Assembly: GCA_036874045.1 (NCBI GenBank)
Contig: JAZBRI010000008.1
Span: 7,951,001-8,015,000, forward strand
Length of the DNA stretch: 64,000 bases
Source: Cymodocea nodosa
Lineage: Eukaryota > Streptophyta > Magnoliopsida > Alismatales > Cymodoceaceae
Reading direction: 5' to 3'
In this document: positions 18,162 to 48,105 of the stretch, piece after piece
How the letters are laid out: each line of letters opens with the position of its first letter
How positions within the stretch are numbered: position 1 is the first letter of the stretch
The notes under the pieces: model-generated
Database searches by the model: none
The model's input: only the letters and a program-made list of their open reading frames with translations
Told to the model about the DNA's origin: nothing
Program-made: the position numbers and the translations under genes

Positions 18162-19774
18162 TGTAGGATCGTATGGCTACACAAGAGGGGGGTGAATTGT
18201 GTATTTTTAATATTTTCTAAAATATAATTGAAACTTTAAAACTCAAAAACAAGTCAAGACATTGTTTTCATAAAATCATTTTTATTCAAGGTTTCAATTA
18301 CAATATACAATTCAATTCTCCTCAGAAATTGTAGACGCAATTATATTTCGATACCATGTATCATCTAAACAATTTCATAACTACAAACAGAGAAAACTAA
18401 TTTGCGGAATTTAAAACTTTTCTCCCTATTTGAGATCTTTCTTCATCTTCTTTTTCTTCTTCATCAATTCTTCAGTGACGAATATCTTGTCTTTTCATGC
18501 TTCACCGAATTTACTTTCTTCTGATACTTCAAATCTTTAGTGACGAAAATCTTACCTTTTTATGCTTCATTGAACTTTCTTTCACTTGAGAGATTTTCCC
18601 CGAGAAGGTGTTTTTCATCCCTGAAAAAGATTTTTCTTTTGGTGTGCAGGGATGGTTTGATCCTCGAAAAGATTTTTCTTTTTGTGTGCAAGGATAAATT
18701 GATCAACGAGAATTCTATGCCTATTATATTGTATCTTCATTTCATGCATATCCTTCACGTTTAACCACCACCAGTTTTCCACTTCTCCACGTCTTTTCTT
18801 TTTCCTTCATCGAAACACACACGTTCTAACCCACGTTTATATTTCAAATTTTCTTTAATCATCAGTCCTGGATCTCTGAAAAATTTCCTGCAAAATAAAC
18901 TTTCTCGTCCAAAAGTTTTTCATCAGTGTAATAAGAAGTCGTTACTTTAATGTTAACTAAACGAGTAACACAAGTATATATATAACTTAACGTTTCTAAC
19001 TTAACGAGTTCCTCATGTGCCATTTCACGTGACAAGTACTGTAGCTAACTCAACGAACTAAGTCTGTGGTGTTATGCTATTTCAACGAACCATCTCCGTT
19101 GTGTTATGATAACTCAACGAACCATCTCCGTTGTTTTATGATAACTAAACGAACCAGTAATAAACAAATGTTTTTATAATAAGAATTTTACCACGTGCAA
19201 AAATAACAACTTAAGTTTATAACGCTAACCTAACACGTTGCCTTAGTGTTCAATATAGCAACTCAACGCGTTTAGTTATGTTAACTTAACGAGTTAAACA
19301 TGTGCACCTCACGTGATACAATACAACATTCGTAACTCATAATTTCACCACGTGTATAACACTAACTTAACGAGTTCGTCTCTTCTTTTACTCACTAACT
19401 TAACGAGTTATCACGTGACCTATTTTAACCTTTAAGCCTCTAACTTAACGAGTTCTCACGTGACCTCTATACAAACAAAACTCTAACTTAACGAGTTGTC
19501 TAAACGTGTACTGTTCATGATACAGAAGATATAACATTAAAACATATCATGTTTTTCAATAAAAACACATGTTATCTTAACGTTTAGCTAAATGAAAAAT
19601 TAATGCAACGAAATGACTAGTTATTAACTTCAGATCCAATACAGACAAGTATTTATATTAGTAAGCTTTTTCTGTATTAATTGATGATTTTAATTTCTTT
19701 TCACAAGCAATAGTAATTGAGCAAATATGATTATTTTCATTCAGCACACATCATCAAAACAAAAATACTCAACA
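18162..19774 (-). repeat. 3' LTR of B1
   Basis: 1613 bp. Rich in TAACTTAACGAGTT / AACTCAACGAACC words and in CACGTG (G-box) cores, for example TCACGTGACC and CCACGTGCAA. Confidence 0.95.
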
Positions 19775-20294: not shown

Positions 20295-22646
20295 TTAGCG
20301 ATCCCTCCTAAGTATATCACTTATAGCATTACATATTTTATCTCCTAGATGCCTAATATCATTTCTGATGTCGTTAAGCACTGCATCTAAGTCAGGAGGT
20401 AGGTGGGTTTGCTATTCTGCTTGAACTGAATAACTTTGTTGTTGTTGTTGTTGTATATGGTCTATATCAGGTTGTTGTTGTTGTTGTCGTTGAGGTTTAT
20501 GCATAGCCTGGAATTTTTGCAAATCTTTGACACTAAATGCTCTTATGCCTTTAGTTTCAAAAGGCTAGTTGGATAAATTCAATTGGCTTGCAATGAGTCT
20601 ACATACAGCATCACCATAAAATAACTTTGAACTCATATGCTGTAGTTGAGAAGTGAAAACATCAAACCAATTGATTTGAATTCTATTCAGCAAGCTATAA
20701 GTTGCATATAAACAACTTCTGCTGACTTCCATATTGTGTCCAACTCTCTGAAATAAATTTGCATGCAATATATTTGCAATAAACCTTGCCTCTGCATTCA
20801 GATTTTCCATTAATCTCATTTCAGAATATACATCTGGAATTTTTGATAAAGACTGAATGTTCCATTCCAGTTGTCTTATCATGTCAAATCTATTTGTAAC
20901 AACAACACCTTCATTCTTTAATCCCAAAACTTCAAAAATTAACTCAAGAGACAATATAAACTCCTGTTCATTTATTTGAGTTTTCAGAAAATTTCCATTC
21001 TTGTCCAGATTGCTATAAAAAGCTACAATAAGCTCTGTGTATTGCTTCCATTTCGTTCCTACTGGCAAGAATTTAATGAGGCCTTGAAACTCAAACAGAT
21101 CTCTTATTTCCATCAAATTTCTGAATTTTATTGGACAAGCATGCAGAATCTGACATGTAATCAGATTATTGTATTTCTACAATGCTTCTTCAAATCTAAA
21201 ATGAATTGCATTACCTTGAATTTTTAATATTGTACACAAAGAAGGTGATACCTGAAGCCGTGATTCAGAGTTTAATTCATCTTCAGGAACCTCTTCTTCA
21301 AAATGAATGTCATGTTGTTCCTCTTCCAAAATATTATCTTGAAGCTACTCAGGTAAGCTTGATTCTTCAGCTTCAACAATGTTAGGAACATTGTCAATAT
21401 GCTCAACATTCATCTATTCAGTCTCTATAGAATGTTCAGAGTATAATTTTTCTACAAATTCTACAGCCGGTGTATCTGTCTGTAATTGTTCATTTTGTTC
21501 AACAGATATTTCCATTGATTCATGCTATGAATTCTCAGACTCTGCTTCTATAGATTCAGTAAAAGGCTGGTTAACTTTTAGCTCTTCTAGAGTCTTAACA
21601 ATTTCAATATCTGCTACTCCAAACAATTCAGCCTTTGAACTAGTTACTGCCTCAACATTGTCAATTATATTTGCAATAACTTGTTCAATGTCAGGTGCCT
21701 GATGCTCTGATTTGTCAATTTCTGCATCATCAGGACTTGTACTAATAGAAAAACTTGAGCTCATATTTGACTTGTATTTCTTCTCAGGCTTTCTAGCAAG
21801 GGAAAATAAAGTCTCATTATCTTCATCAGTTTTAGTGTGTTCGGAACTGATGAGTTTATCAGATGCACAAAAAGGTACAATGTCTAGACATACATTGTCC
21901 TTTGAAAATAAATTTTCATCTGATTTTCCTTTTTCAATAGACTTTGCACAAAAAGGTACAATGTCTAGACATACATTGTCCTTTGAAAATAAATTTTCAT
22001 CTAATTTTCCTTTTTCAATAGACTTTGTTTCCTTAGACATAATTTTTCTGATTTTCCTTCTACTATAACATTTCTGTTTCTCCTCTTCAAGTATTGCTGT
22101 TTTCTTTTCAAATTGCTCCATAAAAGTTTTCTGCTTTAATTCTTCTAAGGCACTTTCTATTGCAACGGCCTTTCGAAGACTATCAACTTTTGTTTTGTCT
22201 ATAGCAATATCTGATTCTACTTGTTTTGAATATAAAGGAGTAGGGATAGCTGATTCATGCTCTTCCTCAAATGCATGTAGTCTTGTACCGTTTATAGGAG
22301 TTTGAGGAGTTCTATTTGATGAACCTACACCTTTTTCCAAATATTTTGCATATTGTTCCAAAAATGCAATCTTAGCACATTTCATTCTGTATTCTTTATC
22401 ATATTTACTTTGAATACCCATGTATGTAATACTTGCATCAGTATGTTGAAGTTCTTGTCTAACTTCATCTAATATATCCTGAGAAAAGAAGTAATCTCTA
22501 TAAAGTTCTTCTAACCTTTTGTCCACTCGAAATATTTTCTTGAACCAAGTACGTGGAACTTCATCATTCTCTATTTCTTTTCCTTTTGCATCTCTTCTGC
22601 TTTTGCCTTTTCCTCTGCCACGACCTTTGTAGAACTTGGAGACCAT
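20295..22646 (-). pseudogene. B1 3' ORF ('env-like' position), nearly continuous
   Basis: ATG at 22646 opens MVSKFYKGRGRGKGKSRRD, a basic N-terminus with no signal peptide. A Glu/Lys coiled-coil region follows (EEHESAIPTP..., EELKQKTFMEQFEKK), then an acidic linker. Next comes a conserved block in frame 21116-20565: ITCQILHACPIKFRN, FEFQGLIKFLPVG, AFYSNLDKNGN, FEVLGLKNEGVVV, FIANILHANLFQRVGHNM. A Gln-rich run and a short amphipathic C-terminus ending LRRDR then TAA (20295-20297) close it. Four or five nonsense codons interrupt about 780 codons, including a TAG that B0 shows was CAG (54120 region). An 81-bp direct duplication (21865-22026) repeats 27 residues. Function unknown. The block resembles the 'putative plant transposon protein' regions seen in plant elements; that is recall, not a search. 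Confidence 0.75.
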
Positions 22647-24234
22647 CGTCGCAGGTTGTAACAGCAACAAGCGGGAAAGATTTTCTTGACAAAGTTTACA
22701 AATAACCTAAGTCCCCATGTTATAAGTGTTTAAATAGGGTTTTTAGGCGTATAACTCAACGTGAAGATAAGTCGAGTTTAGAAATAAAATAAATATTGAA
22801 TAAAGCTTATTCAATCAAAGTACCCGAAATATTCAAGTATAACTCGTTGAGTTAACTAATCTAACGAGTAAAACGCTGTCTAGAGGCAGTTTTACACGTT
22901 TCCTTATCTAACATAACGTCTAGTTAGTACACTTAAACATGTTTCAGATGCTTCCAACTAAAACGTTCCGAAAACAACACACATGCTAAACTTAACATTA
23001 TCTTGAAAACATTGTAAACTATTTGAACATTTTGTCCTTTGAATCTAAAATAGTTTATTTCTCTTTTTAAATTATTTCATCAAGATTTTAAGAGGACATT
23101 AATTCAGATTAACTAAAATTTGTATTTTAAATTATATTAATCTGTTTTTGACATTGTTAATGCTCCCCCTACAAATATACTTCAAATATATTCAATCAAA
23201 ATACAAAATATACTTGTAGTGACAATAGATGTTAAGTATAACTATACTTTTACATTTTCTTTTCAAAGACTTCCGTTATCCTGACATCATCAAAAATGAT
23301 TTCCAGAATCAATTCCTACGGTATATGAATCAAAACACAACTTTGAACTCAATTCGATTAATTCAAGGAGAATAAAAGAATGTATCTCAAATAAATGTTT
23401 TCAAAAGTACTAATGTTGATTCAATAAATCAGTAGTCATATTGGTATAAACTATATGCAATTCAAAGATATATGTAATTAATGAAACAACTTTTTCTTTT
23501 CAACACAGTAAATGTTGATAATTTTCTTTAAAAGTTAGTTTGAAAAGCTTGAATCATACAAGAGCTTTCTAATGTACCCGTGTAATGAGCTTTCAGTCAA
23601 CAATCCCAAATCTGATCAGGACCTTAGGTTGCCAGATTTAAAGAATCCTTTTTCAAGACAACAATCCTTACATACCTACCTGCTCAAGTACAAAAAGCTC
23701 GTGATCAAACTGATCAATAAACTCTCAAAGATTTTCACTTTGTAAGCACTTTTCATTTTAAGTACAGTATATATGTATTCCATTAATACAGATGCAATAA
23801 AACACAAATCTCATACAATTTTTACTTCTATGATTGTACTGAGAATATGAATTAGTTTCAATAAGCTTATACTTTTGATTAATAGTTTAAGATGAGTTAC
23901 ATATAACTTATTCTACAAGTTTAATCAATTAAGTCAAATTTTTTGCATGATCATATGCATTTTCCTTGATTCAAAGAAAACATTTAATCAAAATTTCAGA
24001 ATGTCAGAAGTATTTAATGTTTTTCATTTACACTTCCACTTAAAATTGTAAAAACCATTAAAATTTATAAACTACTTAAAATCAATAAGATACTACTATG
24101 ATTTTACAATAAATACATAGTATCTTAAGCAGCCGTTTAGATATTACTTTAGATATTTATAATAAGTATATAATATCTATGAGGTGAACAACATCATCAA
24201 TAATATTTATCTTTTTATGTGGAGTTTAAGCATT
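22647..24234. other. B1 spacer between pol and 3' ORF
   Basis: 1.6 kb without a gene. 22735-22930, just upstream of the 3' ORF ATG, holds LTR-type words (TATAACTCAACG, TATAACTCGTTGAGTTAAC, ATCTAACGAGT). At 23161-23173 a sense-strand purine tract reads TAGGGGGAGCA. About 23310-23947 is homologous to G1 41484-42140, a gypsy element, in the same sense orientation. Confidence 0.85.
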
Positions 24235-27200
24235 TTACACATCACATAGCCTACAAATACCTAAATTCAATCTAATGTTGCAGAATATATTTTCGTCTAG
24301 AGGTTTTGTAAATATATCAGCTAATTGATTTTTACTAGAGACAAATTCTAATTTAATTTTTCCTTTAATTACGTTATCTCTTAGAAAATGATGTCTAACC
24401 TCTATATGCTTTGCTCTTGAATGTAATACAGGATTTTTGGAAAGATTTATTGCAGAACTACTATCACAATAAATCTCAGTTGTATCATAAGATAATCCAA
24501 AATCTTCTAAAGTTTGCCTTATCCACAGAATCTGAGTGCAACACAGTGCAGCAGCAACATATTCAGCTTCTGTAGTAGAAAGTGTTATATAGTTTTGCTT
24601 TTTACTAAACCATGACACCAAATTATTTCCCAACAATTGACATGTGCCATTGGTACTCTTTCTATCAGATTTAGATCCTACATAATCAGCATCAGTATAT
24701 CCTATAAGTTCTATTGAACTATCCTTAGAATAATACAGTCTGAAATTTTTAGTTCCTTGTATATATCTAAATATTCTTTTAACTGCAATTAAGTGTGATT
24801 CTTTAGGATTAGATTGAAATCTAGCACAAACACACACAGCAAACATAATATCAGGTCTACTAGCTGTCAAATAAAGTAAAGAACCAATCATACTTCTGTA
24901 TTTTCTTTGATCTATAAATTTTCCTATGTCATCAATATCTAACTTTAAAGTAGTACTCAAAGGAGTTCCTCGAATCCTTGTATCATTAAAATTAAATTTC
25001 TTAAGCATTTCAACTGCATATTTTTCCTGATTTAAAAATATACCTTTATCCATTTGCTTAATTTGAAGTCCTAGAAAATATGAAAGTTCTCCTATCATAC
25101 TCATTTCAAACTGATCAGTCATCTCTTCAGAGAATATTTCTATCAACTTATTAGAGGTTGCTCCAAAGATTATATCATCCACGTATATTTGAACAACAAT
25201 CTGATCTTTACCATCTCTCTTAATAAATAGAGTATGATCCACTTTTCCCATGATATAGCCTTTTTCTATTAAAAAAGTAGACAATCTTTCATACCATGAT
25301 CTAGGTGCTTGCTTCAAACCATATAAGGTTTTCTTCAATTTATACACAAAGTTAGGATTTTTAATATCTTCAAATCCAGGTGGTTGTTTTACATAGACTT
25401 CTTCATTAATTAAACCATTTAGAAATGCACTCTTTACATCCATTTGATATAATTTAAAATCCATATAACAAGCATAGGCCAATAATATTCTAATACTTTC
25501 TAACCTAGCCACAGGAGCAAATGTTTCATCATAATCTAATCCTTCTTCCTGTGTATACCATTGTGCAACTAATCTAGCTTTATTCCTTATAATTTGACCA
25601 GTTTCGTTAGTTTTGTTTCTAAAGATCCACTTTGTACCTATTATGGACTGATTTTCTGGTGGAGAGACTAATTCTCATACATCATTTCTGATGAATTGAT
25701 TTAGTTCTTCTTGCATTGCCACTATCCAATTTTCATTAGATAATGTTTCTTATATATTCCTTAGTTCCACCATAGAAACAAACATGCACATACTATTTAA
25801 ATATACTGAAGCTCTAGTTTTAACTCCCTCATTAATATTACCAATGACTTGAGTAATGGGATGTGATGAAGAATAACGCCAATTTCTCTGATTTTCCTCA
25901 ATATTCTCATCAACATCTGAAAGTCCATCACTTTCATCATTAGTTTGATCATTTAAGTTCATATTTTTGATGTTCTCAGATAAATCATCAATCTCTCTAT
26001 TGATCTCTAACTCATTTGGAAAATTGATCAAGTCATCATTATCAGCTTTAGATTGAGATTCTCTAAGAGAATTTTCATTGAAGCTTACATGGAGGGTTTC
26101 TTCAATAGTCCAAGAAGTCTTGTTATATACTCTATAGGCTTTACTTCTAATAGAGTAACCTACAAAAATTCCTTCATCCGATTTGGCTTGAAATTTATCC
26201 ATTTTATCCTTAGTATTAAGAATAAAACACTTGCAGCCAAATGGTTTCATATAGGAAATTTTTGGAACCCTATTAAACATAATTTCAAAAGGAGTTTTAT
26301 TAGCATGAGGTCTTAAATGACTTCTGTTAATAACATAACAAGCTGTATTTACTGCTTCAGCCCAAAGATTTTGAGGTAACTTATGTTCATTCAACATAGT
26401 TCTAGCCATTTCTTGAAGTGATCTATTCTTTCTCTCAACAACACCATTTTGACACGGTGCTCTTGGAAAAGAAAATCTGTGATCAATGCCATGCTCATTA
26501 CAATAGTTATCCATTTGATCATTATCAAATTCAGTTCCATGATCACTCTTAAGTTTTTGAATAGAGACACTTTGCTCATTTTGAACAAAATTGCTAAACA
26601 TTTTAAATTTTTCAAAAACTTCTGTCTTAGATGCTAGAAGATATACCCAAGTGTATCTAGAGAAGTCATCTACTAAAACAAATACATACCGTTTACCACC
26701 AAGACTCATGATTCTTGTGGGTCCAAATAGATCCATATGTATAAGTTCTAAGACTCTCTTGCTTGAAATAGATCCACATGCATCACACATAAAGTTCTTT
26801 GAGTATTTAATCTTTGGTAAACCTCTCACTAAATGTTTTCTAGATAGTTTATATAACAGTCTCATATTTATATGCCCAATCCTTCTATACCATAAATATG
26901 CATCACTAGTTTCAACTAGCAAACATGAATTTAAATCAACTGCACTAGAAGGTAAAGATAAAATACATACAGAACCTTTTCTTTTAGCAATAAACTTAAT
27001 TTCATCTGTATTTTTATCAATTATTTTGCATACATTATCTTCAAATACTACATAATATCCATTTTCAATTAATTTTATGACACTCAGCAAATTAAATCCT
27101 AGGTTTTCTACATATAGTACATTCGAAATAACACAAGTAGGAGTTATTTGAACATTGCCCATACCTATGATTTTATCTTTGCTTTTGTTTCCAAATGTTA

Positions 27201-27312
27201 CACTTCCTTTCATGGTATTTGTAAAATTTTGTAATAGACCTTTTTGTCTGGTCATGTGACTTGACGCTCCACTATCCAAGATCCATTTTGATGTTGTTTT
27301 TTCCTGCAACAC
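24235..27312 (-). pseudogene. B1 pol (PR-INT-RT-RNase H), two nonsense codons
   Basis: One frame over about 1025 codons with stops only at 25750 (TAA) and 25675 (TGA where Trp is expected). Protease has ILDSGASSHMT near residue 13. In GAG-pre-integrase, LWYRRIGH has Tyr for the first zinc His (B0 keeps LWHR), and CDAC follows. Integrase keeps all three acidic residues: MDLFGP (about 26731), SDHGTEFDN (about 26541) and NGVVERKNR (about 26440), with the D-35-E spacing. About 15 residues between the zinc site and the core are missing compared with A. RT keeps YVDDIIFG (25176-25187), and RNase H keeps TDADYVGSKSDRKS. It is the most intact polymerase in the window. Confidence 0.93.
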
Positions 27313-29570: not shown

Positions 29571-29572
29571 CT

Positions 29573-31809: not shown

Positions 31810-32000
31810 AATACAGATGAGCTTAAGTTTATTGCTAAAAGAAAAGGTTATGTATGTATTTTATCTTTACCCTCTAGTGTAGTTGATTTAAATTCATGTT
31901 TGCTAACTGAAACTAGTGCTGCATATCTGTGGCATAGAATGATCAGGCATATAAATATGAAATTGTTACATAAATTGTCTAGAAAACATTTAGTGAGAGG
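31810..32000 (+). pseudogene. B0 pol fragment (GAG-pre-integrase)
   Basis: Plus-strand coding sequence in one open frame: NTDELKFIAKRKGYV, LPSSVVDLNSCLL, AAYLWHRMIRHINM, LSRKHLVRG. It aligns to B1 pol at about 26820-27010 and keeps the zinc-site His that B1 has lost. Element C bounds it on the left and the G1 LTR on the right, so it marks G1's insertion point inside B0. Confidence 0.85.
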
Positions 32001-32412
32001 TGTTTAGAATGAAAAAGTGCATATTGTTAACGGTTAAATGATGGTTAATTGCATAATATTTAGCTTATCATATGAGAATTAAGCCATTATGTTATAATTG
32101 CACTATTATATGCTTTAATTGAAGAATCTACTTAATTTTGGGAAATTAATGTTAATTTAGTACATTTATGAACTGTCGGTAAGTTGCAGGCTGTGAAATT
32201 CTTAAGTATCCGAATTTTCTGATATTTCGGACAATTATGTTTAACATACTGAACAAATTCGGACAGTTATGTTTAACAGACCGAATATGTATCCGATAAT
32301 TATGTTTAAATTGCCGAACAGTTATGTTTAGAGAGAATATTTTATTATTTCCAGATATACACGTGTCGAAACCAGAATGAATGTCTTAAGTGAATTTTCG
32401 ATGAGTTAGCTG

Positions 32413-32449
32413 TAACTATCCGAAAATGCATCTGAGCATCGGATAGTTA
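32413..32449 (+). promoter_or_regulatory. Conserved stem-loop in G LTRs
   Basis: TAACTATCCGA pairs perfectly with TCGGATAGTTA across a 15-base loop containing ATGCAT. The same pair is in the other three G LTRs: 42830-42866, 55332-55367 and 60282-60317. The role is unknown. Confidence 0.7.
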
Positions 32450-33802
32450 TACCTGTAACTCTCTGAAATGTTATTTTATGTTTAAACTACTGCTGACACA
32501 TGTCGAGAGCTGGTAGATTTACTTAAGTTATAACTCGTTAAGTTAGCATATCTGTACGCGTTGAGTTACATGAATATACACTAAGGTAACACGTTATGTT
32601 AGCGGCTTATTTCTTTATTGCATGTATTTTATGCACGTGTTGAATTTAAATGCTTTAGAATATCATGTGAGATGCACATGTTTAACTCGTTAAGTTAGCA
32701 TAACTGCACGCGTTGAGTTACATGAATATACACTAAGGTAACGCGTTAGGTTAGCGGCTTATTTCTTTATTGCATGTATTTTATAGTTATTTTCTAAAAT
32801 GCCACTGTAGCGGTTGCAGGAACAGACAGTTGGAAGAAAAAACCACGTTTGCACGTATCACGTAGGAATTCAATCGCGCATGGAGAAGGAAGCATCGCCA
32901 TTGATCTGAAGGAAAGAAATTCAAACGATCATTCAAGCAGAAGTAGTTACTACTGAAGAAATATAAAAGAAAAGAAGAAAAAAAAAAAAGAAAGTGTGAT
33001 CGATGGACGACCAGTATATACAGAGGAGGAGCACCAAGCTTTCTCCAGACAATATTGGCGATTCTCCAAAGTATCACACCAACTATCGTTATCACCACCA
33101 TAATCACCAATCATCAGAGGTCTGTGAGGATACTTGCTTGATGTAGGGTCGATTTCGAGCCAAACACAGTGCTTGACAACCACTATGAGGAGTGATCGCG
33201 TTATGGGAAGGGAAGACATTTTCACCAAACGCCGACTCATATTTCAGGAGATCGTAAAACTTTTAGCCTTGGCTTCGGGTTGATGCCTGTATGCTGAAGA
33301 GGAGATCATCTTGCAATTCTGGACTCGCGATTCTATAGGGAGAGGAGATAGAATTGTAAGTGGTTTAATTTTCAGTGGTGTAATCGCGTTGCAAGTAGTG
33401 TCGGAAGTATTTACTGTCAAGTGAGATTACTTTACATTTCACCTTTCGCCCATTTCCATGTTCACATCAAAACAAAAATACCAAAAATAATTTATCTTTG
33501 TTTGTATGTTGTATTTGAGTGTTGTATTGTTTGTGTTGTATCGTGATTAATGTTATCTGTACCAGTTTTATGATTGTTTTATGTTAGTTTTAATTTTATA
33601 GTTTACTAAAATTGGTTCGTACAAAAAACTAAAAGATTTTAATAGTGACTGTTTGAATCATCTGAATGTTAGTATTGCTTAATGATAAATCCAATGTTAA
33701 CTAGCATTAAAAAGCTTAATTGATGTTATTTACAATCTGTGGAATCACCCAATGGTTGGCCGAATTCCCTTGTAAATAGTAGTATTATAAAGAAGAGACA
33801 GA

Positions 33803-33862
33803 CTCGTGGAGTTAACTTAAGTCCACGAGGATAGTCCGTTGAGTTAACTGTAACTCAACGGA
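33803..33862 (+). promoter_or_regulatory. Two adjacent hairpins in the G1 LTR
   Basis: CTCGTGGA/TCCACGAG (33803-33829) is followed by TCCGTTGAGTTA-ACTG-TAACTCAACGGA (33835-33862, 12 perfect pairs, 4-base loop). Related hairpins lie at 39432-39459, 55584-55612 and 61497-61524. Confidence 0.7.
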
Positions 33863-34142
33863 GTGCTTATTGAATATAAATTTGAATTGTTCACAATCAA
33901 ACATTTCTTAAATTCGTCAGCAATTCCCTATGGGATCGACCTATACTTGCACATTGATATAATAGACACTATGCACTTGCAGTTAAAGTACAAATTGGAA
34001 TTAATATCTAAATTGTATTAAAGGTTGTTTGTTTACTTCTAAAAGAAAGAATAGGCATAAAGATAAATTAACTAAGTAAAAAATAGAAGTAACAAATCCA
34101 AGTTTTTCTAGTGTAGTGCTGGGAAAACCCAAACAAGTTTTA

Positions 34143-34160
34143 TGGCGCTGTTGCCGAGGA
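34143..34160 (+). other. PBS of G1 (tRNA-Asp type)
   Basis: TGGCGCTGTTGCCGAGGA, seven bases after the LTR end. It differs at two sites from TGGCGCCGTTGCCGGGGA, the Athila PBS complementary to plant tRNA-Asp. Confidence 0.85.
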
Positions 34161-34269
34161 ATTGAATTGAATTGAGTCGAAGTGAATTGAATTGAATTAA
34201 TATAAGTAACTATTAGAGCTGTTTCGTTTTAATAGCTAGAGTTGTGTGTTTTCTTTTGTAACTGAGAAT

Positions 34270-35220
34270 ATAGCATATGCTTATGCTCAAAGATTTCTGA
34301 AACCTTTAATTAGCATATGTGAATTCTGCAATTCTGAAGGACACGACATTTCTAGTTGTTTGAAATTGAGACATTTACAGATTGTTAGATCCCATGAACA
34401 ACAAATGAATTATCCTCAATATAATAAAGCCGAGTATGAGAATCCTATAGTTTACCCAACTGATGGTCAGTATAGAATGTGTAATATGATGAGAGACACT
34501 GAAGTTTGGGATAGCTATGACAGACTGGAGCATAGTATAGAGCAAAATCTGGACAAATTGGAATACTTTGTGTTTCAACAACAAGAAGTCAACTGGTTAA
34601 ACTATAAGGAGGCATATTCAGAACCTAAACAGGATATAATTTACGAAACTGAAAAAGCCATAAAGAAAATTGATCAAAAATTGAATGCAATGAAATTAGA
34701 TGATCTGGAAACAAAATTAAAAGCATTAGACAAAAATGCAATGAAAATACAAGTTTTCCAATAGAACAATGAAAATTATAATGTTATAAACCTGCACAAC
34801 TTGCAAAATATACAACAAACAGAAAACACTAATGTAAGAGAATTTAAAGAATGCACTTTAAAACTAAAAATAATTGAAGATCATAATCACGAAAATGATA
34901 TACAAAAACATCATGAAAGTAACAAAAATCTAGAAGATGTATGTGTAACATTAAGATCTGGAACTGATATACCACCAAGAACTCAAAATGAAAATGATAT
35001 GAAGGTGGACAAGAGTAAAAATCAAAATGATAATGAAAATGTAATAGTTGAAAATCTAGAAATCATTGAAGAACAATCTGAATCTGCAATTGAAGCTAAA
35101 AATGATCAAACAAATCAACTGAAAGAAAAAGAGTCTTTGAAATCAAAATATTTAGCGCCCTATCCTGAAAGACTACAACAAACAATTCCTGAAAAATAAG
35201 AAAAAATCAGAGAAATTTTT
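34270..35220 (+). pseudogene. G1 gag reduced to nucleocapsid
   Basis: The frame starts at 34270 with ATA where G2 has ATG (57115), only about 110 bases after the PBS. After about 16 residues comes a zinc knuckle, CEFCNSEGHDISSC (CX2CX4HX4C), then a Gln/Glu/Lys coiled-coil and acidic stretch leading to LAPYPERLQQTIPEK, the usual Athila pre-protease sequence. The capsid domain that precedes the knuckle in Athila gags is absent in both copies. Stops: TAG at 34762 (CAG in G2) and TAA at 35197 (CAA in G2). Gag and pol share this frame without a break signal. Confidence 0.82.
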
Positions 35221-36168
35221 GAAAAAGTACAAGTTAACATTCCTTTGTTAGATCTATTGCAGAATATGCCACCTTGTGCTAAATTTCTGAATGATTGGTG
35301 TACTAAGAAAAGAGAGCGAAAAGTTCTTAGAAAGGTCTTTTTAGCTGAGCAAAGTAGTTCCCTATTTCTGCCTCAAATTCCTAAAAAGTTATCTGATCCT
35401 GGAATCCCTATTATATCATGCACCATAGGAAATACCATTCTAGAAAGAACCTTAATAGACTTAGGTGCAGGTATAAATGTTATGCCAAGTGATATATTTG
35501 CATCCTTAGGATTAGAAGGCTTAACTCCTACTAGTACAGTTATTCAATTAGTTGATAGAAGTATAAGATACCCTAGAGGAAAAATAGAGGATGTCTTAAT
35601 TAAAATCAAGAATTTTATATATCTTATTGATATTGTAATTTTGGATTCCCAACAAATTAAGCATAAAAATAGTGATACATCTTTAATTTTGGGAAGGCCA
35701 TTTTTAGCAACATCAGGGGCTGTTATAAATTGTAAAATTGGAGTAATGAAGTTAGCATATGGTAATGAGGATACTCAATTAAATATTTTCAAACTAGAAA
35801 GGTTTGAGGAGTTAGAAATGTCCTTACATACCATAGACTTTTTAGAGGATGAAGGAGATATGTTAGATGATGTGATTCAAGAAGAATTAAATAGGTAAAT
35901 CAATTCTGAAACTTTAGAAGAAAGTGAAAGCATAAATATAGAAGGAGATCAGGAAGAAATTAATTTAAAAAATGATGATGTTCAATTAGGAGCTCTAGCT
36001 TCTAATGGGCAACATTTAGAATTAAAACCTTTACCTCTTGAATTAACCTATATATTTCTGGAAGATAAACGGACCTGTCCAATCATTATTGCTTCAGATT
36101 TAAAAGAGGATCAAATAGCTAAATTAAAAGATGTAGTAAAAAGTTATAAAGAAGCAATAGGATGGACT
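35221..36168 (+). pseudogene. G1 protease region
   Basis: Same frame as gag. VNIPLLDLLQNMPPCAKFLNDW leads into the aspartic protease: LIDLGAGINVMPSDIF (active-site DLGA; Athila usually has DLGAS, so Gly replaces Ser), VDRSIRYPRGKIEDVLIK and LILGRPFLATS. TAA at 35896 is CAA in G2. Downstream is an acidic linker (ELTYIFLEDKRTCP) ahead of RT. Confidence 0.85.
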
Positions 36169-37583
36169 ATGACTGATATAAAAGGGTTAAGTTCAACTTT
36201 ATGCTGTCACCACATATATTTAGAAGAGAATGCTAAACCTGTTAGAATTCTTGAGAGGAGATTAAATCCAAACATTAAGGAAGTAGTTAGGAAGGAAATA
36301 GTTAAATGGTTAGATAATGATATAATTTATCTAATTTCTGATAGCTCGTGGGTTAGTTCAATCCATGTAGTTCCCAAGAAATCAGGATTAACAGTTATTA
36401 GGAATGAAAGTCAAGACTTGATACCTACTAGAATTCAATCAAGCTAGAGAGTATGTATAGACTATAGAAAGCTGAAAGTTGTGACTAGGAAAGATTATTT
36501 TCCCTTACCTTTTATAGATCAAATGCTGGAAAGATTAGCAGGGCAAGAATATTTTTGTTTCCTAGACGGGTATTCAGGGTATAATCAAATTCTAGTAGCA
36601 TTAGTGGATTAAGAGAAAACAACTTTCACCTGTCCTAATGGAACTTATGCTTTTAAAAGAATGCCATTCGAATTATGCAATGCGCTAGCTACCTTTCAAA
36701 GGTGTGTGTAGGGCATATTTACTAGAATGACTGAAGAATTTTAGAAATATTTATGGATGATTTTACTGTATATGGCAACTCATATGAAGTGTGTTTAAGC
36801 AATTTAGACCAAATATTAAAACGATGTGTGGAAAAAAATCTAGTTTTAAATTGGGAAAAATGTCACTTCATGGTTAAACAAGGAATAGTCTTAGGGCATG
36901 TTGTTTCTAAAAAAGGGTTGGAAGTAGATAAAGCTAAAATAGAAGTAATTTCTAATCTACCAAAACCTAAATCAGTAAAAGATATTAGATCATTTCTAAG
37001 ACATGCTGGTTTTTATAGAAGATTTATTAAAGACTTTAGCAAGATAGGTAGACCTTTAACTAATCTATTAAAAGATGTTCCATTTAACTTTGATAAAAAT
37101 TGCAAGGAAGCATTTTTCAGACTTAAGACTAGCTTAATTTCAACTCCTATAATTCAAGCACCTCATTGGAACCATCCATTTGAATTAATGTGCGATGCTT
37201 CTGATTTTGCTATAGGAGCAGGACAGAAGATAGAAAAATCTCCTAGAGTGATTCATTATGCAAGCAAAACCTTAAATGATGCTCATGTTAATTACACAAC
37301 TACTAAAAAAGAATTATTAGCTGTTGTGTTTGCTTTAGAAAAGTTTAGATCATATCTGATTGGAGCTAAAGTAATAGTATATACGGATCATTCAGCTCTA
37401 AAACATCTAATAAAGAAAAAAGAAACTAAACCTAGATTGATCCGATGGATATTATTATTGCAAGAATTTGATTTAGAAATTAAAGATAAAAAAGGTAGTG
37501 AGAATGTAATAGCAAATCATTTATCAAGATTACAAATAGAAAAATCAAATATTGAAATTGAGGATAATTTTCCTAATGAATAA
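36169..37583 (+). pseudogene. G1 reverse transcriptase and RNase H
   Basis: RT fingers: WVSSIHVVPKKSG, then VCIDYRKLKVVTRKDYFPLP and YFCFLDGYSGYNQI (first catalytic Asp). TAG at 36445 replaces Trp (also TAG in G2), there is another TAG near 36610, and a single-base loss in a T run at about 36738 shifts the frame just before FMDDFTVYG, the catalytic YMDD equivalent, which is intact. The connection and RNase H ([36 protein letters not shown]) keep the acidic residues; two residues (VL) are missing after AIGA. It ends FPNE-TAA, where Q is expected. Confidence 0.9.
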
Positions 37584-37586
37584 TTA

Positions 37587-38909
37587 ATGACCATCAACAC
37601 AATGCCTTGGTATGTAGACATAGTTAATTACTTAGTTACTGGTTTAACACCTAAGGATTGGAATAGACAGGATAAGAAATTATTTTTCTCAAGAGTAAAA
37701 TATTACTATTGGGAAGACCTTTACTTATTTAAGAAATGTCCTGATCTGGTTTTAAGGAGGTGTGCTCCAGAAATTGAATATTCGAGCATATTATCTTTCT
37801 ATCATGACCAAGCTTGTGGAGGACATTTTGGTTCAGGGAAAACTGTTGCAAAAATTCTACAATGTGGGTTTTATTGGCCAACACTATTCAAAGATACTCA
37901 TAAATATTGCTTAAGTTGTTTAAGATGTCAACAAATAGGAAGAATATCAAAGAGGAATATGATGTCTCTTAATCCTATTGTTGAGTTTGAAATCTTTAAT
38001 GTGTGGGGAATAGATTTTATGGGTCCATTTCCTATGTCTAATCAATTTAATTACATATTATTGGGGGTGGATTATGTATCTAAATGGATAGAAGCTATTC
38101 CTACAAAAACTAATGATAACAAAGTGGTAATACAATTTATAAGAACAAATATATTTGCCAGATTTGGAATACCTAAAGCTATTATCAGTGATAGAGGAAC
38201 TCATTTCTGTAATAGAAGTTTTGAAGCCTTAATGAAGAAATATGGAGTAAACCACAAAATTGCAACATCATATCATCCGCAAACAAGTGGACAAGTAGAA
38301 AGTGCAAGCAAACAAATTAAATTAATCTTGGAAAAAGTAGTAAATCCTACTAGAACAGATTGGGCTAATAGAATGATAGATGCACTTTGGGCTTATAGAA
38401 CTGCTTATAAAACGAGCTTAGGTATGTTACCTTTTAGGCTAGTATATGGAAAAAGTTATCATTTACCTGTTGAAATAGAACATAAAGCTTATTGGGCATT
38501 AAAAACTCTGAACACTAATTTAAATCAAGCTGCTGAAAATAGGAAAATGCAACTAATTGAATTAGAAGAATTTAGAAATGAAGCTTATTCGAAGACTGTA
38601 AGAGAAAAAGAGAAAATTAAATTCTGGCATGATAGAAAAATTATTCCTAAAAGCTTTGAAATAAGACAAGAAGTATATCTTTATATGGCTAAACTCCATA
38701 ACCATCCAGAAAAATTAAGATCTAGATGGGCAGGACCTTACATAGTTCGAAATGTTTATCCTTATGGAGCTATTGAAATTGAAAATCCTAAAAATCAGAA
38801 TATATTTAAAGTAAATGGACAAAGACTTAAACCTATTCTGAAAACACCAAAAAGCTCCTTTGGAATTATAGAAGAAGTAAGAGTAGAGGACTACTCGAGC
38901 TTTACTTAG
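37587..38909 (+). CDS. G1 integrase, complete 440-codon frame
   Basis: Open from ATG 37587 to TAG after SFT, in frame with RNase H and parted from it by one stop; the ATG is therefore internal to the original polyprotein. HHCC zinc domain: [15 protein letters not shown], then [14 protein letters not shown] core: [32 protein letters not shown], all three acids present. C-terminal GPY-like module: [22 protein letters not shown]. It is the only uninterrupted enzyme domain of the G family in the window. Expression without the upstream polyprotein is doubtful. Confidence 0.88.
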
Positions 38910-39350
38910 TAAGAAATCAGTTTTTATGTTTATATATATATGTTTAAAAAAAAAATTAAAAAAAACATTAAAAATATATATAAAACATAAAAATAATTGC
39001 GGTTCAACCGACTAGATCCATCAGTATGACTGGAACATTAAAAAAAAATTATATATTAATTTTTAGAAAAAAAAATATTGGTTTTACCGAAACATAGTAT
39101 CGGTCCAACCGAAAGAAAAATAAAAAAAATATTTATATCTAACCGAAGCATAGTATCGGTTAAACCAGCAAAAAAATTGTATATTAATTTTCAGAAAAAA
39201 ATATTGGTTTTACCGAAACATAGTATCGGTTCAACCGAAAGAAAAATAATAAAAAATAAAAAATATTTAATTCTGACCGAAGCATAGTATCGGTTAAACC
39301 GGTAAAAAAACATAAAAACTATTCTCTGTAATATTTTTATTATTATATTT
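38910..39350 (+). repeat. G1 126-bp tandem repeat with ACCGA hairpins
   Basis: After pol, an A/T-rich stretch repeats TTGGTTTTACCGAAACATAG from 39078 and again from 39204 (period 126). Each unit has two ACCGA...CATAGTATCGGT inverted pairs. CGGTTCAACCG palindromes occur at about 39000. A related array is in G2 (63680-63890). Confidence 0.8.
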
Positions 39351-39359
39351 GCTTGTACG

Positions 39360-39465
39360 GGGAGTCCATTGAGTTATGCTTAACTCAATGAGCATACTCC
39401 GTTAAGTCTTGAGTTAGTCAACGAGCTTATTCCGTTGAGTTAACTGTAACTCAACGGAGTACTGT
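39360..39465 (+). promoter_or_regulatory. G1 hairpin cluster after pol
   Basis: GAGTTATGCTTAACTC, then TCCGTTGAGTTA-ACTG-TAACTCAACGGA (39432-39459), the same hairpin as in the G LTR. G2 has the counterpart at about 63930-64000. Confidence 0.7.
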
Positions 39466-39474
39466 AGCTAAGAC

Positions 39475-39770
39475 CTAAAATTAGAAAAACTCCAGAAGGA
39501 AGTAGATGAATTTAGGCATAGAGATTAAATTGTATTGTTCGTCTACTTGTGTAAAATTGTATGAAATTGTATGGTGTACTTGTAATGTAATTGATTCATA
39601 TTAATAAATATAATTTTTTAGATGCAATTTTCATACGTATTTGGATGTGAAATGAATGGAATTTATTGAATATTATGTAATTTGTGGAACTTTATGAATA
39701 TGTAACAGATTTACAATCTGCTGAATGACAGGATAACTGCTTAAAAATTTCTGCATGTTATAAGGTAAAA
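39475..39770 (+). pseudogene. Copia D-type 3' ORF tail inside G1
   Basis: LEKLQKEVDEFRHRD and a stop at 39526-39528, followed by about 240 bp of tail, match the end of the D 3' ORF and its downstream region (15530-15800) in sense orientation. This is a copia-type terminal coiled coil sitting in a gypsy 3' region. Confidence 0.72.
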
Positions 39771-39957
39771 TGTAAATTCTGTATAACGTAAAATGACCTA
39801 CAAGTTAAATCTTTATATAATGTTTAGATTTAAATGTATTTTAATCAAAATAAGGCATTAATGACATAGATTTAACTTTATTACAGTTAGTAGAATGAAA
39901 AACAAAGAAAAAAAACAGAATAGAAAACTTACGAGAGTGAAACTTAGAATTTGCCTA

Positions 39958-40155
39958 GTGTTAACTCAACGAAGTAAGTCCGTTGAGTTAACCGTAACTC
40001 CACGAGGTCAGTAATATAATATAAGGTCACTCCGTTGAGTTATCTGTAACTCAACGAAGTTAGTCCATGGAGTTAGCAACAGTAACCGACTGTGTTCTGT
40101 TGAGTAATCTGTAACTCAACGAGGTTAGTTCGTGGATTAAGCAGAACGGTTATTC
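39958..40155 (+). promoter_or_regulatory. Array of CCGTTGAGTTA words before the FBA-like ORF
   Basis: At least four imperfect pairs of TCCGTTGAGTTA and TAACTCAACGAAG within 200 bp, just upstream of ATG 40168. They are of the same motif class as the G LTR hairpins. Confidence 0.6.
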
Positions 40156-40167
40156 TTTTAACCACAA

Positions 40168-40659
40168 ATGAAACTTCGTCGATTTAGCGGTTACCAAAAT
40201 TTGCCTATATATAATTATATAGAAATTTTACCTGTACCGAGTGAAATAGCTAAACCACCATCTGCAGAATTTAATGAAATTCAAATAGGAATGTGGTATA
40301 ATGAAGAAGATGATCCTACTTTATGTCTGATAACATGGTGGGATGAACTGATGAAATTTCAAATATGGATTATGGAAGACATGAATGAATGGAAGTGGGA
40401 AGAGGAGTATATTGAAATAGATGTAGAAATAAAAACTGCTACATTACCTTAGAACCAAAAAGGATCCCTTTCTACATTACATATCATTAATGGTAATACA
40501 CTCGTATTTGGAATTTATAATATATTGCATGTTTACAAATTAAAAAGGAACAAGAACTACATTAAAACAGAATTAATAGCAAGAAGAACTATACCTAAAA
40601 AGTTTGCTTGGACTGATACATTTATTCCATTTGTTTCTACTTTTCAATCATGTTCTTAA
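40168..40659 (+). pseudogene. F-box-associated-like remnant in the G1 3' region
   Basis: ATG 40168 opens MKLRRFSGYQNLP and runs into YIEILPVPSEIAKPP, MWYNEEDDPTLCL, KFQIWIMEDMNEWKWEEE, then a TAG at 40450, and in the same frame TLHIINGNTLVFGIYN, LHVYKLKRNK and FIPFVSTFQSC before TAA. The order 'formula-IxLP, DPTLCL, xIWxM.....W, G..L...Y....L, FVxSxxS' matches plant F-box-associated domains; no F-box is present. It is homologous to 1-301. Such genes are not part of gypsy elements, so capture from the host is inferred. Relation to a known retroelement ORF is not excluded. Confidence 0.5.
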
Positions 40660-41483
40660 GCTGTGATTTTGTGTGTTTAACGTGTGTATTCTGCATTTAT
40701 TTTTTTTTTAAAAAAAAGGAATTTTGAAGTTTTTCATGTTCATTTTATAAAAACAAAAAAAAAACAAAAAAAACAAAATATCAATCCAATTTGTTGGTAT
40801 CTGTTCTGGGAAACCAACTGGCTTGCTTGTGAGCGACCAAAGGCATAGGAGCCTGGGTTCCACATAAGACACTGATTTATTAATATCTGTTAAATGTTAT
40901 TTTGTTTTATATTCTGTATTTATCTGGGAATGAAAAGTTTTTCAGAATCAAAAATCAGAATATGCAGAAAGAGATACAAATGGAACAAGGTATGTAACCA
41001 ATTACTTATCCTAAATTTTAAATCAAACAAAACTTTATTCATGCCTGCTACAATTACTGTACTTATTGTCAAATCTTTTACATTGAGGACAATACAAAAT
41101 GTAGGTATGGGGGGGAGGTAATTAAAGTAACAGCCATGTAAGTTTGTTAATTAAAGGAATTAAAATGGTACTACAAAGTTTTGAGGAAATTGAAAATTTT
41201 TATGAACTTGCTTTAACTATCCGATAATTGAGACTGTAAAATTTTTATAAACTGCTTGAATGTTATATTTAGAAGGCTATAGAAGATGCTATAGAATTTA
41301 TTATTTATGTAAATCTAGATATAATATCTTATGATTTTTCTGAATTTCATGAGTTTAACAGTTTCACGATTTTAAAATGAAATCAGAATATTTAATGCTT
41401 AATTAGAAAATTATCTGAAGTCTTGAAGGAGTTGAGATGTGAATTCTAGATTAAATGAAACACATATGATGAAAGATACATTT
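40660..41483 (+). other. G1 3' region with internal purine tract
   Basis: No convincing gene. ACATTGAGGACAATA and then TAGGTATGGGGGGGAGG (41102-41118) form the usual Athila end-of-element signal, yet the LTR is 1.3 kb further on. A-rich and T-rich runs lie around 40700-40790. Confidence 0.7.
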
Positions 41484-42140
41484 AATTTGACTGATTGAAC
41501 TTGTAGAATGATTTATGTGTAGATCTTATTAAACTACAGATAAAGTATGAGCTTATTGTTATGGATTCATATTTTTAGTAAATGATAGAAGCAGGATTAT
41601 ATGAGATTGGTGTTTTACTGCATCTGTATTAATGAAATACGTGCATATACAGTATGTGATTAATGCTTTGTTTTGTGTGTGCATTTATTTTTAGAAAAAA
41701 AAAAAAAAACTTTGAAAGTTTATTGACTTGTTTGATCACGAGCCTTTTGTACTTGAGTAGATAGGTATGTAAGGATTGTTGACCTGAAAAAGGACTCTGA
41801 AAATCTGGCAACCTAAGATCCTGATCAAATCTGGGATTGCTGACTGAAAGCTCGTTACATGGGTACATTAGAAAGCTCTTGTATGATTCAAGCTTGTCAA
41901 ATTAACTTTTAAAGTACACAAAAAAAAAAAAAAAATATACTGTTCTGAAAAGATACAAGTGTTTTGTGAAATACAGATATCTTATGAATCGAGTATATTT
42001 TCTGTTATCTAGAATTGCTGAAATATGAATCTGGAATTGACTTTTGAAGTTGTTTAATGGAAATACAATTCTTTATTCTACTTGTCTTAATCGGATTGAA
42101 TTGAATTGTACTTTGATTCGTATGTTGTTGAAATTTCTTC
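41484..42140 (+). repeat. Module shared by gypsy G1 and copia B elements
   Basis: This stretch aligns along its length to the reverse complement of B1 23310-23947 and B2 about 47255-47820: for example TTGAACTTGTAGAATGA, GTTTTACTGCATCTGTATTA, GAAAGCTCTTGTATGATTC and TACTTTGATTCGTATG with small gaps. The module lies in sense orientation in both element types and has no ORF. Confidence 0.85.
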
Positions 42141-42402
42141 TAGAAAACTTATTCGAAAATTTAGGATTACAGATGATGAAAAGAAGAACAAACGATAATA
42201 TAATTAACACCTATATGAAGATGATATACTTTGTATGTAATTTACATATATTCTAAATATCTTTGCAGGTTGATTACTAAAGCATACAGAATATATGTTT
42301 ATGCTAAACAGAAGAAAAAAAACAAAAGGGGAAGAATTAATTTTAGCACTTTTTGAAAGACCAATTAATTAGATCTTAGTTTGCTAAGGGACTAGCAAAA
42401 TT
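42141..42402 (+). other. End of G1 internal region
   Basis: AT-rich, no gene seen. A short hairpin, TTTGCTAAGGGACTAGCAAA (42380-42399), stands just before the purine tract. Confidence 0.6.
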
Positions 42403-42417
42403 TAGGTATGGGGGAAG
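42403..42417 (+). other. Polypurine tract of G1
   Basis: TAGGTATGGGGGAAG abuts the TGTTTAG start of the 3' LTR. It repeats the internal tract at 41102 almost exactly. Confidence 0.85.
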
Positions 42418-44182
42418 TGTTTAGAATGAAAAAGTGCATATTATTAATGGTTAAATGATGGTTAATTGCATAATATTTTGCTTATCATATGAGAATTAAG
42501 CCATTATGTTATAATTGCACTGTTATATGCTTTAATTGAAGAATCTACTTAATTTTGGGGAATTAATGTTAATTTAGTATATTTATGAACTGTCGGTAAG
42601 TTGCAGGCTATGAAATTCTTAAGTATCCGAATTTTCTGATATTTCGGACAGTTATGTTTAACATACCGAACAAATTTGGACAGTTATGTTTAACAAACCG
42701 AATATGTATCCAATAGTTATGTTTAAATTGCCGAACAGTTATGTTTAGAGAGAATATTTTATTATTTCCAGATATACACGTGTCAAAACCAGAATGAATG
42801 TCTTAAGTGAATTTTCGGTGAGTTAGCTGTAACTATCCGAAAATGCATCTGAGCATCGGATAGTTATACTTGTAATTCTCCGAAATGTTATTTTATGTTT
42901 AAACTGCTGCTGACACGTGTCGAGAGCTGGTAGATTTACTTAAGTTATAACTCGTTAAGTTAGCATAACTGTACACATTGAGTTACAGGAATATACACTA
43001 AGGTAACGCATTATGTTAGCGGCTTATTTCTTTATTGCATGTATTTTATGCACGTGTTGAATTTAAATGCTTTAGAATATCACGTGAGATGCACATGTTT
43101 AACTCGTTAAGTTAGCATAACTACACGTGTTGAGTTACATGAATATACACTAAGGTAACGTGTTAGGTTAGCGGCTTATTTCTTTATTGCATATATTTTA
43201 TAGTTATTTTCTAAAATGCCAGTGTAGCGGTTGCAGGAACAGATAGTTGGAAGGAAAAACCACGTTTGCATGTATCACACAGGAATTCAATCGTGCATGG
43301 AGAAGGAAGCATCGTCGTCGATCTAAAGGAAGGAAATCCAACTGATCATTCAAGCAGAAGCAGTTACTACTGAAAAAATATAAAAGAAAAGAAGAAAAAA
43401 AGAAGAAAGTGTGATCGATGGACGGCCAGTGTATACAGAGGAGGAGCACCAAGCTTTCTACAGATAGTATCAGCGATTCTCTGAAGTATCACACCAACCA
43501 TCATTATCACCACCATAATCACCAATCATCGGAGGTCTATGAGGATACTTGCTAGATGTCAGGTCGATTCCGAGCCAAACACAGTGCCTGACAACCACTG
43601 TGAGGAGTGATCACGTCGCGGGAAGGGAAGACATTTTCACCAAGCGCCGACTCATATTTCAAGAGATCGTAAAGCTTTTAGCCTTGGCTTCGGGTTGATG
43701 TCTGTATGCTGAAGTGGAGATCATCTTGCAATTCTAGACTCGCGATTCTATAGGGAGAGGAGACAGAATTGTAAGTGGTTTAATTTTCAGTGGCGTAATC
43801 GCATTGCAAGTATTGTCGGAAGTATTTACTATCAAGTGAAATTACTTTACATTTCACCTTTCGCCCATTTCCATGTTCACATCAAAACAAAAATACCAAA
43901 AATAATTTATCTTTGTTTGTATGTTGTATTTGAGTGTTGTATTGTTTGTGTTGTATCGTGATTAATGTTATCTGTATCAGTTTTATGATTGTTTTATATT
44001 AGTTTTAATTTTACAATTTACTGAAATTGGTTCGTACAAAAAACTTAAAGATTTTAATGGTGACTGTTTGAATCATCTGAATGTTAGTATTGCTTAATGA
44101 TAAATCCAATGTTAACTAGCATTAAAAAGCTTAATTGATGTTATTTACAATCTGTGGAATCGCCCAATGGTTGGCCAAATTT
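42418..44182 (+). repeat. 3' LTR of G1, right end deleted
   Basis: Matches the 5' LTR from its first base to about 33774, then breaks at GGCCAAAT against B2 sequence. It keeps both 152-bp-spaced units (42952 and 43102) and the 11-bp hairpin. Confidence 0.92.
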
Positions 44183-44294
44183 CTGTAAACAAGAATAATA
44201 ATTGAACACATTTACAGAAAAATGTATTGTTCAATAAATCAAACAAGTAATACAAACATTACATTTTGTATTCAGAAACAAACAAAAACAGTTA

Positions 44295-46557: not shown

Positions 46558-48105
46558 CGTCGTAGGTTGTAAAAGCAACAAGCGGGAAAGATTTTCTTGA
46601 CACAGTTTACAAATAACCTAAGTGCCTATGTAATAAGTGTTTAAATAGGGTTTTTAGGCATATAACTCAACGTGAAGAGAAGTCGGGTTTAGAAATTAAA
46701 TAAATATTGAATAAAGTTTATTCAATCAAGGTACCCGAAATATTCAAGTATAACTCGTTGAGTTAACTAACCTAGAGAGTAAAACACTGTCTAGAGGCAA
46801 TTTTACACGTTACCTTATCTAACATAACGTCTAGTTAGTACATTAAATAATTTTCGAATGCTTCCAACTGAAACGTTCTGAAAACAACACACATGCTAAA
46901 CTTAACATTATCTTGAGAACATTGTAAACTATTTGAACATTTTGTCCTTTGAATCTAAAATAGTTTATTTCTCTTTTTAAATTATTTCATCAAGATTTTA
47001 AGAGGACATTAATTCAGATTAACTAAGATTTGTATTCTAAATTATATTAATCTGTTTTCGACATTGTTAATCCTCCCCCTACAAATATACTTCAAATATA
47101 TTCAATCAAAATACAAAATATACTTGTAGTGACAATAGATGTTAAGTATAACTATACTTTTAAATTTTCTTTTCAGAGACTTCCGTTATCCTGACATCAT
47201 CAAAAATGATTTCCAGAATCAATTCCTACTGTATATGAATCAAAACACAACTTTGAACTCAATGTGATTAATTCAAGGAGAATAAAAGAATGTATCTCAA
47301 ATAAACGTTTTCAAAAGTAATAATGTTGATTCAATAAATCAGTAGTCATATTGGTAGAAACTATATGCGATTCAAAGATATCTGTAATTAATGAAACAAC
47401 TTTTTCTTTTCAAAACAATAAATATTGATAATTTTCTTTAAAAGTTAGTTTGAAAAGCTTGAATCATACAAGAGCTTTCTAATGTACCCGTGTAATGAGC
47501 TTTCAGTCAACAATCCCAGATCTGATCAAGGCCTTAGGTTGCTAGATTTAAAGAATCCTTTTTTAGGACAACAATCCTTACATACCTATCTACTCAAGTA
47601 CAAAAGGCTCATGATCAAACTGATCAATAAACTCTCAAAGATTTTCACTTTGTAAGAATACAGATGCAATAAAACACAAATCTCATACAATTTTTACTTC
47701 TATGATTGTACTGAGAATATGAATCAGTTTCAATAAGCTTATACTTTTGATTAATAGTTTAAGATGAGTTACATATAACTTATTCTACAAGTTTAATCAA
47801 TTAAGTCAAATTTATGCATGATCATATGCATTTTCCTTGATTCAAAGAAAACATTTAATCAAAATTTCAGAATGTCAGAAGTATTTAATGTTTTTCATTT
47901 ACACTTCCACTTAAAATCGTAAAAACCATTAAAATTGATAAACTACTTAAAATCAATAAGATACTACTATGATTTTACAATAAATGCATAGTATCTTAAG
48001 CAGTAGTTTAGATATTACTTTAGATATTTATAATAAGTATATAATATCTATGAGGTGAACAACATCATCAATAATATTTATCTTTTTATGTGGAGTTTAA
48101 GCATT
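46558..48105. other. B2 spacer between pol and 3' ORF
   Basis: 1.5 kb, no gene. Like B1 it has AACTCAACG / AACTCGTTGAGTTAAC words at 46660-46850, a sense purine tract at about 47071 and the gypsy-shared module at about 47255-47820. About 40 bp are deleted at 47655 relative to B1. Confidence 0.8.

Follow-up and report, generated by a model that had tools for sequence, protein, structure and literature searches.

Retrotransposons of the copia and gypsy types are regarded as lineages that replicate separately, and the locus described here raises the question of how a gypsy element and copia elements come to hold the same stretch of noncoding DNA. This study analyzed a 64,000-nucleotide stretch of DNA (the window), within which gypsy elements (G) and copia elements (B and C) were nested in one another. 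A first-pass annotation had proposed that the gypsy copy G1 carries a copia-derived module framed by two identical purine tracts. We compared G1 with the copia copies B1 and B2 of the window and with further copies at loci elsewhere in the genome (numbered L); the coordinates of the features are collected in Table 1.

Table 1. Positions of the features of G1, B1, and B2 in the window.
Feature	Position	Strand	Basis or remark
G1 5' LTR	32001..34140	+	starts TGTTTAG; right end approximate, set from other G copies
G1 coding part	34240..38909	+	weak protease match, RT, RNase H, integrase; several frames broken
G1 F-box ORF, 3' remnant	40211..40659	+	open frames
PPT1, first purine tract, TAGGTATGGGGGGGAGG	41102..41118	+	sequence read directly
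Block common to G1 and copia B, sense orientation	41227..42290	+	blastn; edges from sliding identity profile
Moderately conserved part of block	41461..41635	+	77% between G and B
Constrained core in G1, 205 nt	41710..41914	+	rod-like predicted sense fold; 90% G1-B1
PPT2, second purine tract, TAGGTATGGGGGAAG	42403..42417	+	abuts 3' LTR (TGTTTAG... from 42418)
G1 3' LTR	42418..44189	+	starts TGTTTAG; ends early where B2 sequence begins
B1 U3 piece with counterpart inside some G LTRs	19142..19296	-	LTR comparison
B1 3' ORF	21525..22706	-	downstream of block; no Pfam match at E<=0.001
Block in copia B1	23085..24180	-	55 nt past pol stop to beyond internal purine tract; lower edge from G3 match
B1 internal purine tract GTAGGGGGAG	23163..23172	-	near 3' end of B1 block
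Core in B1	23526..23730	-	sequence match
B1 pol	24235..27312	-	integrase before RT
Block in copia B2	46964..48033	-	blastn match
Core in B2	47436..47640	-	sequence match

The class of each element was read from the order of its Pfam domains. In G1, RT_RNaseH (36753-37583; 6.9e-33), with an RNase H of the gypsy type, lay upstream of rve (37587-38909; 1.8e-15), so that RT precedes integrase as in Ty3/gypsy; H2C2 was matched at 1.6e-12, and the Asp_protease_2 match (0.002) was below the cut-off. In B1, on the minus strand, rve (25750-27312; 2.4e-14) lay upstream of RVT_2 (24235-25512; 2e-52), as in Ty1/copia. The premise of the first-pass annotation, that members of two superfamilies share noncoding sequence, was sound. 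The LTR pair of G1 (31997-33776 and 42414-44189) matched at 94%. The N-terminal gag and the start of the F-box were missing from G1 and present in other G copies retrieved, which had approximately 2.5 kb of extra sequence there, and the F-box matched Pfam at 9e-11 in the G copy L013. Gag-like frames and the F-box ORF were located at L009:4570-7181 (minus) and L013:946-2646; nearly all of this region has been lost from G1, between window positions 40203 and 40211, and in G2 (L017) it lies downstream of pol. We take these frames to be gag by their look, Pfam giving no match, and presume from the look of gag and protease that G is an Athila-like lineage. B carries an extra 3' ORF, the PBS TGGTATCAGAGC, and the PPT GGGGGAGAT before TGTT, which are marks of the SIRE/Maximus lineage, to which B may belong. 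The LTRs of copia C were found at 301-4135 (with an insert) and 12873-14607, and this element appears to be nested in a minus-strand G element (window 301-14607). By eye, a palindrome-like motif around AACTCAACG/CGTTGAGTT recurs in the LTRs and spacers of G and B (window 39350-40130, 42950-43150, and the B LTRs).

When G1 (31998-44180) was searched against B1 (18162-31185) by using blastn (E<=1e-4), only one block and pieces of the LTR regions matched, all of them in sense orientation. The block aligned G1 41227-42280 with B1 24180-23157, sense to sense, at 70% over 1078 columns (E 3e-148), and the G1 block matched B2 at 68% over 1077 columns. The annotated sense alignment of 41484-42140 to the copia B spacer is therefore real, and the similarity extends further than had been claimed. 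In a sliding profile, the identity of G1 and B1 exceeded the background from approximately 41245-41267 and dropped off by approximately 42290-42320. The first-pass annotation had let its claim depend on a comparison with shuffled sequence; the local score of G1 against B1 was 360, whereas the maximum of 300 dinucleotide shuffles was 28, the antisense control scored 23, and two control spacers scored 20 and 15. Chance is excluded as the source of the match. The block occupies the spacer between pol and the 3' ORF in B and lies between the two purine tracts upstream of the 3' LTR in G. The 2.6 kb that L009, another G copy, has in addition yielded two short matches (45 and 32 nt), both in antisense.

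The purine tracts of G1 stand where they had been annotated (41102 and 42403), but they are not identical as claimed, since PPT1 and PPT2 have TAGGTATGGGGG in common (12 nt common to both tracts) and then diverge. PPT1 was present in 22 of the 24 other G loci examined, the exceptions being L072, in which PPT1 was joined to the LTR, and L074, which matched PPT2 only. The word spanning the junction of PPT2 and the LTR had 3899 genome copies at up to 3 mismatches and none when reversed. A tract like the GTAGGGGGAG of B1 was retained in the old G copy L075.

We then surveyed the block in both families. A 33-base core word allowed up to 3 mismatches had 6921 copies in 374.6 Mb, and its reversed form had none. 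Among the first 30 exact matches to this word on contig C1, 11 stood in G context, 19 in B context, and none alone; diverged families could be missed in this sample because it was picked by exact core match. A G LTR lay beside the block in all 11 G-context loci, and the 3' end of the F-box was present in 10 (L026 had gag-region sequence instead). The 19 B-context loci all contained B pol, and 17 contained the B 3' ORF (not L035 and L044). In the B copy at L044:1992-3031, the block end is fused to the B LTR from LTR position ~400, and the locus gave no 3' ORF match. The first-pass annotation expected a family trait to be present in most G copies. We found the block at 20 of 20 sampled G 3'-LTR junctions, which were the first exact PPT2-LTR junctions on C1 without a listed exact core nearby and excluded copies already scored; the best 40 of 3870 first-look candidates for the 1316-base query running from tract to tract all spanned at least rows 1-1312, at 93-100%. 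These results establish the block as a common trait of both families. One of the 20 junctions, L062 (C1:7676540-7677390), belongs to a G copy from which 41402-41945, including the core, has been deleted.

A pattern search for G elements without the block gave 6 matches, one of which was L050 and the other five L072-L076. L074 carried the block, L075 and L076 carried its 3' part beside nested LTR sequence, and L073 was not judgeable. In L072 (C1:17171200-17172600), the F-box end is followed by PPT1 and then directly by the LTR, with no block; because the tracts share 12 nt, this copy may represent either a deletion between the tracts or an older form that precedes the block. Neither blastn (best E 0.34) nor nhmmer run unfiltered found the block in the one copy of copia C, in the left part of the window; C matched B at 66-72% in pol and over 26 nt at the purine tract. 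B therefore has the block in common with a gypsy element but not with C, its copia relative.

The strongest feature of the locus, absent from the first reading, is a constrained core within the block. We determined identities in 21 G and 19 B blocks, leaving out the incomplete L026, L040, and L049. The values within G, within B, and between the families were 0.935, 0.952, and 0.893 at 41705-41914, compared with 0.917, 0.925, and 0.589 at 41267-41460, 0.934, 0.948, and 0.772 at 41461-41635, and 0.925, 0.931, and 0.667 at 41935-42290; net divergence of G and B was approximately 5% in the core and 17-33% outside. In the core, 4 of 206 columns carried a fixed difference between the families, compared with 99 of 756 outside it (Fisher 3e-7), and this scarcity indicates that the core is constrained. 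Columns variable within a family were only somewhat fewer in the core (G 62 and B 58 of 206) than outside (G 283 and B 255 of 756). Because this within-family variation is probably for the most part decay after insertion, the contrast of fixed with variable columns serves as a McDonald-Kreitman-style test; it gave 7.6e-5, or 1.2e-4 without the 33-base search word, for copies that are not independent of each other. A core kept nearly unchanged in both families suggests that what was traded may have been a working control element.

We investigated whether the core could form a structured RNA. For the sense strand, the predicted MFE was -60.5 kcal/mol in G1 41700-41930 (z -5.0; none of 200 shuffles as low) and -61.2 in B1 23515-23740 (z -3.5; 1 of 200 as low), and both folds were much the same rod, with the outer stem at the core edges. 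Sense and antisense energies were -58.3 and -42.1 for G1, -58.4 and -33.3 for B1, and -54.9 and -34.9 for B2; a joint fold of 15 cores, a set too alike for covariation, gave -42.8 for sense versus -26.7 for antisense. When the 21 G1/B1 substitutions were placed at random, an equally low sense energy was reached in 14 of 400 and 6 of 400 trials, and the antisense control gave 192 of 400 and 22 of 400. Among 37 cores, 3 pairs had changed on both sides versus 1.8 in shuffles (137 of 500 as high), and the covariation score was equalled in 230 of 500 shuffles. A 200-nt window of B1 holding all but 15 nt of the core had a z of -1.1, and the like window of G1 had a z of -3.4; the cores of G2 and G3 folded more weakly when taken singly, with partly different shapes. 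At predicted pairs whose most frequent form is G-C or C-G, 48 G-U and 13 A-C variants were counted, a ratio that leans toward a sense RNA, in related copies and with RNAalifold itself favoring G-U. A search of Rfam yielded no match at E<=1 in 41000-42500. On these predictions, we regard it as an even question whether the core acts as RNA on the sense transcript. The position in G and the z values of -5.0 and -3.5 fit a discrete structured RNA near the 3' LTR, a trait of the retroviral elements CTE and RTE, and covariation was no higher than in shuffles. That the core might serve as a packaging signal, or do the work of a retroviral RNA transport element, is a guess, and a rather doubtful one.

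To place the block in time, we built a tree from 37 blocks, comprising 18 of the earlier 40 and 19 of the 20 new ones (L062 was left out). In this unrooted tree, B stood on one side with 100/100 support, and the old G copy L050 (in L070) branched off between B and the remaining G copies, with L064, G2, G3, and L067 next in order. This position does not bear out the label of copia-derived; being unrooted, the tree accommodates transfer from B to G, transfer from G to B, and a lost third source. The block is older than the spread of the sampled copies.

A younger exchange was found in the LTRs. The G LTR of L022 contained two pieces of B U3, one of 151 nt at up to 95.4% and one of 154 nt at up to 98.7% to the B LTRs of the window, flanked on both sides by G LTR sequence. 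A mosaic G LTR with two B U3 pieces lies at L070:666-2928 (= L022:2063-3033). A smaller U3 piece of 105 nt was found at 92-95% in L011, L026, and L032 and at approximately 87% in L009, L012, and L015, and G1 itself carried 137 nt at 77-79%. Because the copies of the U3 piece in B differ from B1 by 1-5%, the transfer seen in L022 probably took place within the life of the B family and from B into G. This young exchange makes recombination between G and B credible. A coding module is likewise common to B and an old G copy, L071, at 45% over 56 residues (E 2e-16); its ORF in B matched Transposase_32 at 3.6e-4, below the Pfam cut-off, and the L071 piece matched no family.

On balance, we consider it somewhat more likely than not that copia and gypsy elements exchanged sequence repeatedly, probably through template switching, and that a functional cis element was kept. 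An old exchange would have put a block of approximately 1.05 kb into the 3' part of both families: in copia B it separates pol from the 3' ORF, and in gypsy G it lies between the two purine tracts upstream of the 3' LTR. In a younger exchange, some G LTRs would have acquired sequence from B U3. In the likeliest route, a plausible one, reverse transcriptase would have switched templates among B and G RNAs that were co-packaged; the orientation would then stay in sense, and a second purine tract could be left behind. Both families may have retained the block because its 205-nt core works in cis. The same exchange could have occurred at the DNA level, with nested B and G copies undergoing unequal recombination or gene conversion, as the common nesting of B, G, and C elements in the window, the tandem G elements that seem to share one LTR (L019 and L070), and a B LTR nested in the G copy L075 would allow. 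We rate that route as rather unlikely: the pieces common to G1 and B1 are all in sense orientation and the U3 piece lies within U3 in both, which template switching that keeps register predicts more directly, neither point being decisive. The likeness of the core might also stem from continued copying between B and G (concerted evolution) and not from selection. Young U3 exchange exists in these families, and region-specific recombination is reported as the main cause of shared noncoding sequence in plant pararetroviruses (PMC5491270). However, a tree of the core alone, built from 37 of the 59 distinct full cores (11 from B, 26 from G), set B apart across a branch supported at 100/99, and 5 columns of the alignment A2 were fixed between B and G. 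Because the core alone separates the families, no sampled copy has recently been homogenized, and we hold continued copying to be improbable.

Two further readings concern the core itself. It could be a captured host exon or an extra ORF antisense to the element, of the Retand type: in G1, B1, and B2, an antisense frame runs open through most of the core and gives similar peptides, 11 of the 21 G1/B1 differences fall at third codon positions of that frame, and plants are known to have extra ORFs in antisense between pol and the 3' LTR (PMC7264820). We rejected an antisense coding exon or ORF, since the frame contains stops in 5 of 15 distinct copies (L010, L012, L013, G2, and G3) and matches no family (nothing in Pfam at E<=5, and no protein homolog at E<=1); this origin appears very improbable. 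The first-pass annotation named as a refuting alternative a separate transposon inserted into both families, for example a foldback MITE, and the core does fold back on itself with imperfect inverted repeats as its ends. That alternative is disfavored to the point of being scarcely credible, since no core stood alone among the 30 sampled copies, picked by exact 33-base match, and since the sequence outside the core is also homologous, so that a single transposon insertion would have to predate the sharing.

Returning to repeated exchange with a retained cis element, we offer as a tentative and fairly unlikely extension that a cis-acting RNA element crossed the divide between copia and gypsy and was held by selection in both. 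If this were true, and if the element were a packaging or export signal, the RNAs of both superfamilies would travel one route; a single RNA route would explain the continued exchange of sequence seen in the U3 mosaics and how G copies without pol could be mobilized. A constrained common module together with later U3 exchange implies that in this plant-like genome the two life cycles overlap more than sequence classification suggests. The analysis names one 205-nt sequence for a direct test of the function of 3' noncoding DNA in plant retrotransposons. In the literature searched, which left most subscription journals outside, we found no report of a shared copia-gypsy module of this kind; it includes a report on template-switch chimeras in plant LTR elements (PMC1950507).

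Retand-type gypsy elements likewise have a long extra region between pol and the 3' LTR (PMC11963269); their antisense ORFs differ from the G/B antisense frame, which is broken in 5 of 15 distinct copies. Bdelloid retroelements resemble G and B in that modules are common to very different retroelements, but theirs are coding ORFs (PMC5408684), whereas the G/B block is noncoding. Endogenous pararetrovirus partners of different species in one plant genome share regulatory noncoding sequence (PMC5491270); theirs was reported to be homogenized by region-specific recombination, whereas the G/B core separates B from G. The CTE of simian type D viruses (173 nt) and the RTE of mouse IAP (226 nt) are structured RNAs of a size similar to the core and are active when set downstream of the last gene and upstream of the 3' LTR (PMC1363727), whereas the G/B core, for which Rfam gave no match, belongs to a plant-like host and would be a putative export element at most. 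A like layout is found in the macaque retrovirus SERV-K/MER11, in which recombination with another retroelement added an HML-8-derived noncoding segment, several hundred bp long, to the space separating the last ORF from the 3' LTR, and a run of purines adjoining it may represent a second PPT (PMC11379458). Both parents there are endogenous retroviruses of the HERV-K type, and the segment was tested for export and shown to act as a transport element, whereas the parents of the G/B block belong to different LTR superfamilies and its function is putative. For SERV-K/MER11, the authors propose co-packaging followed by a template switch (PMC11379458), the route that we consider likeliest for G and B.
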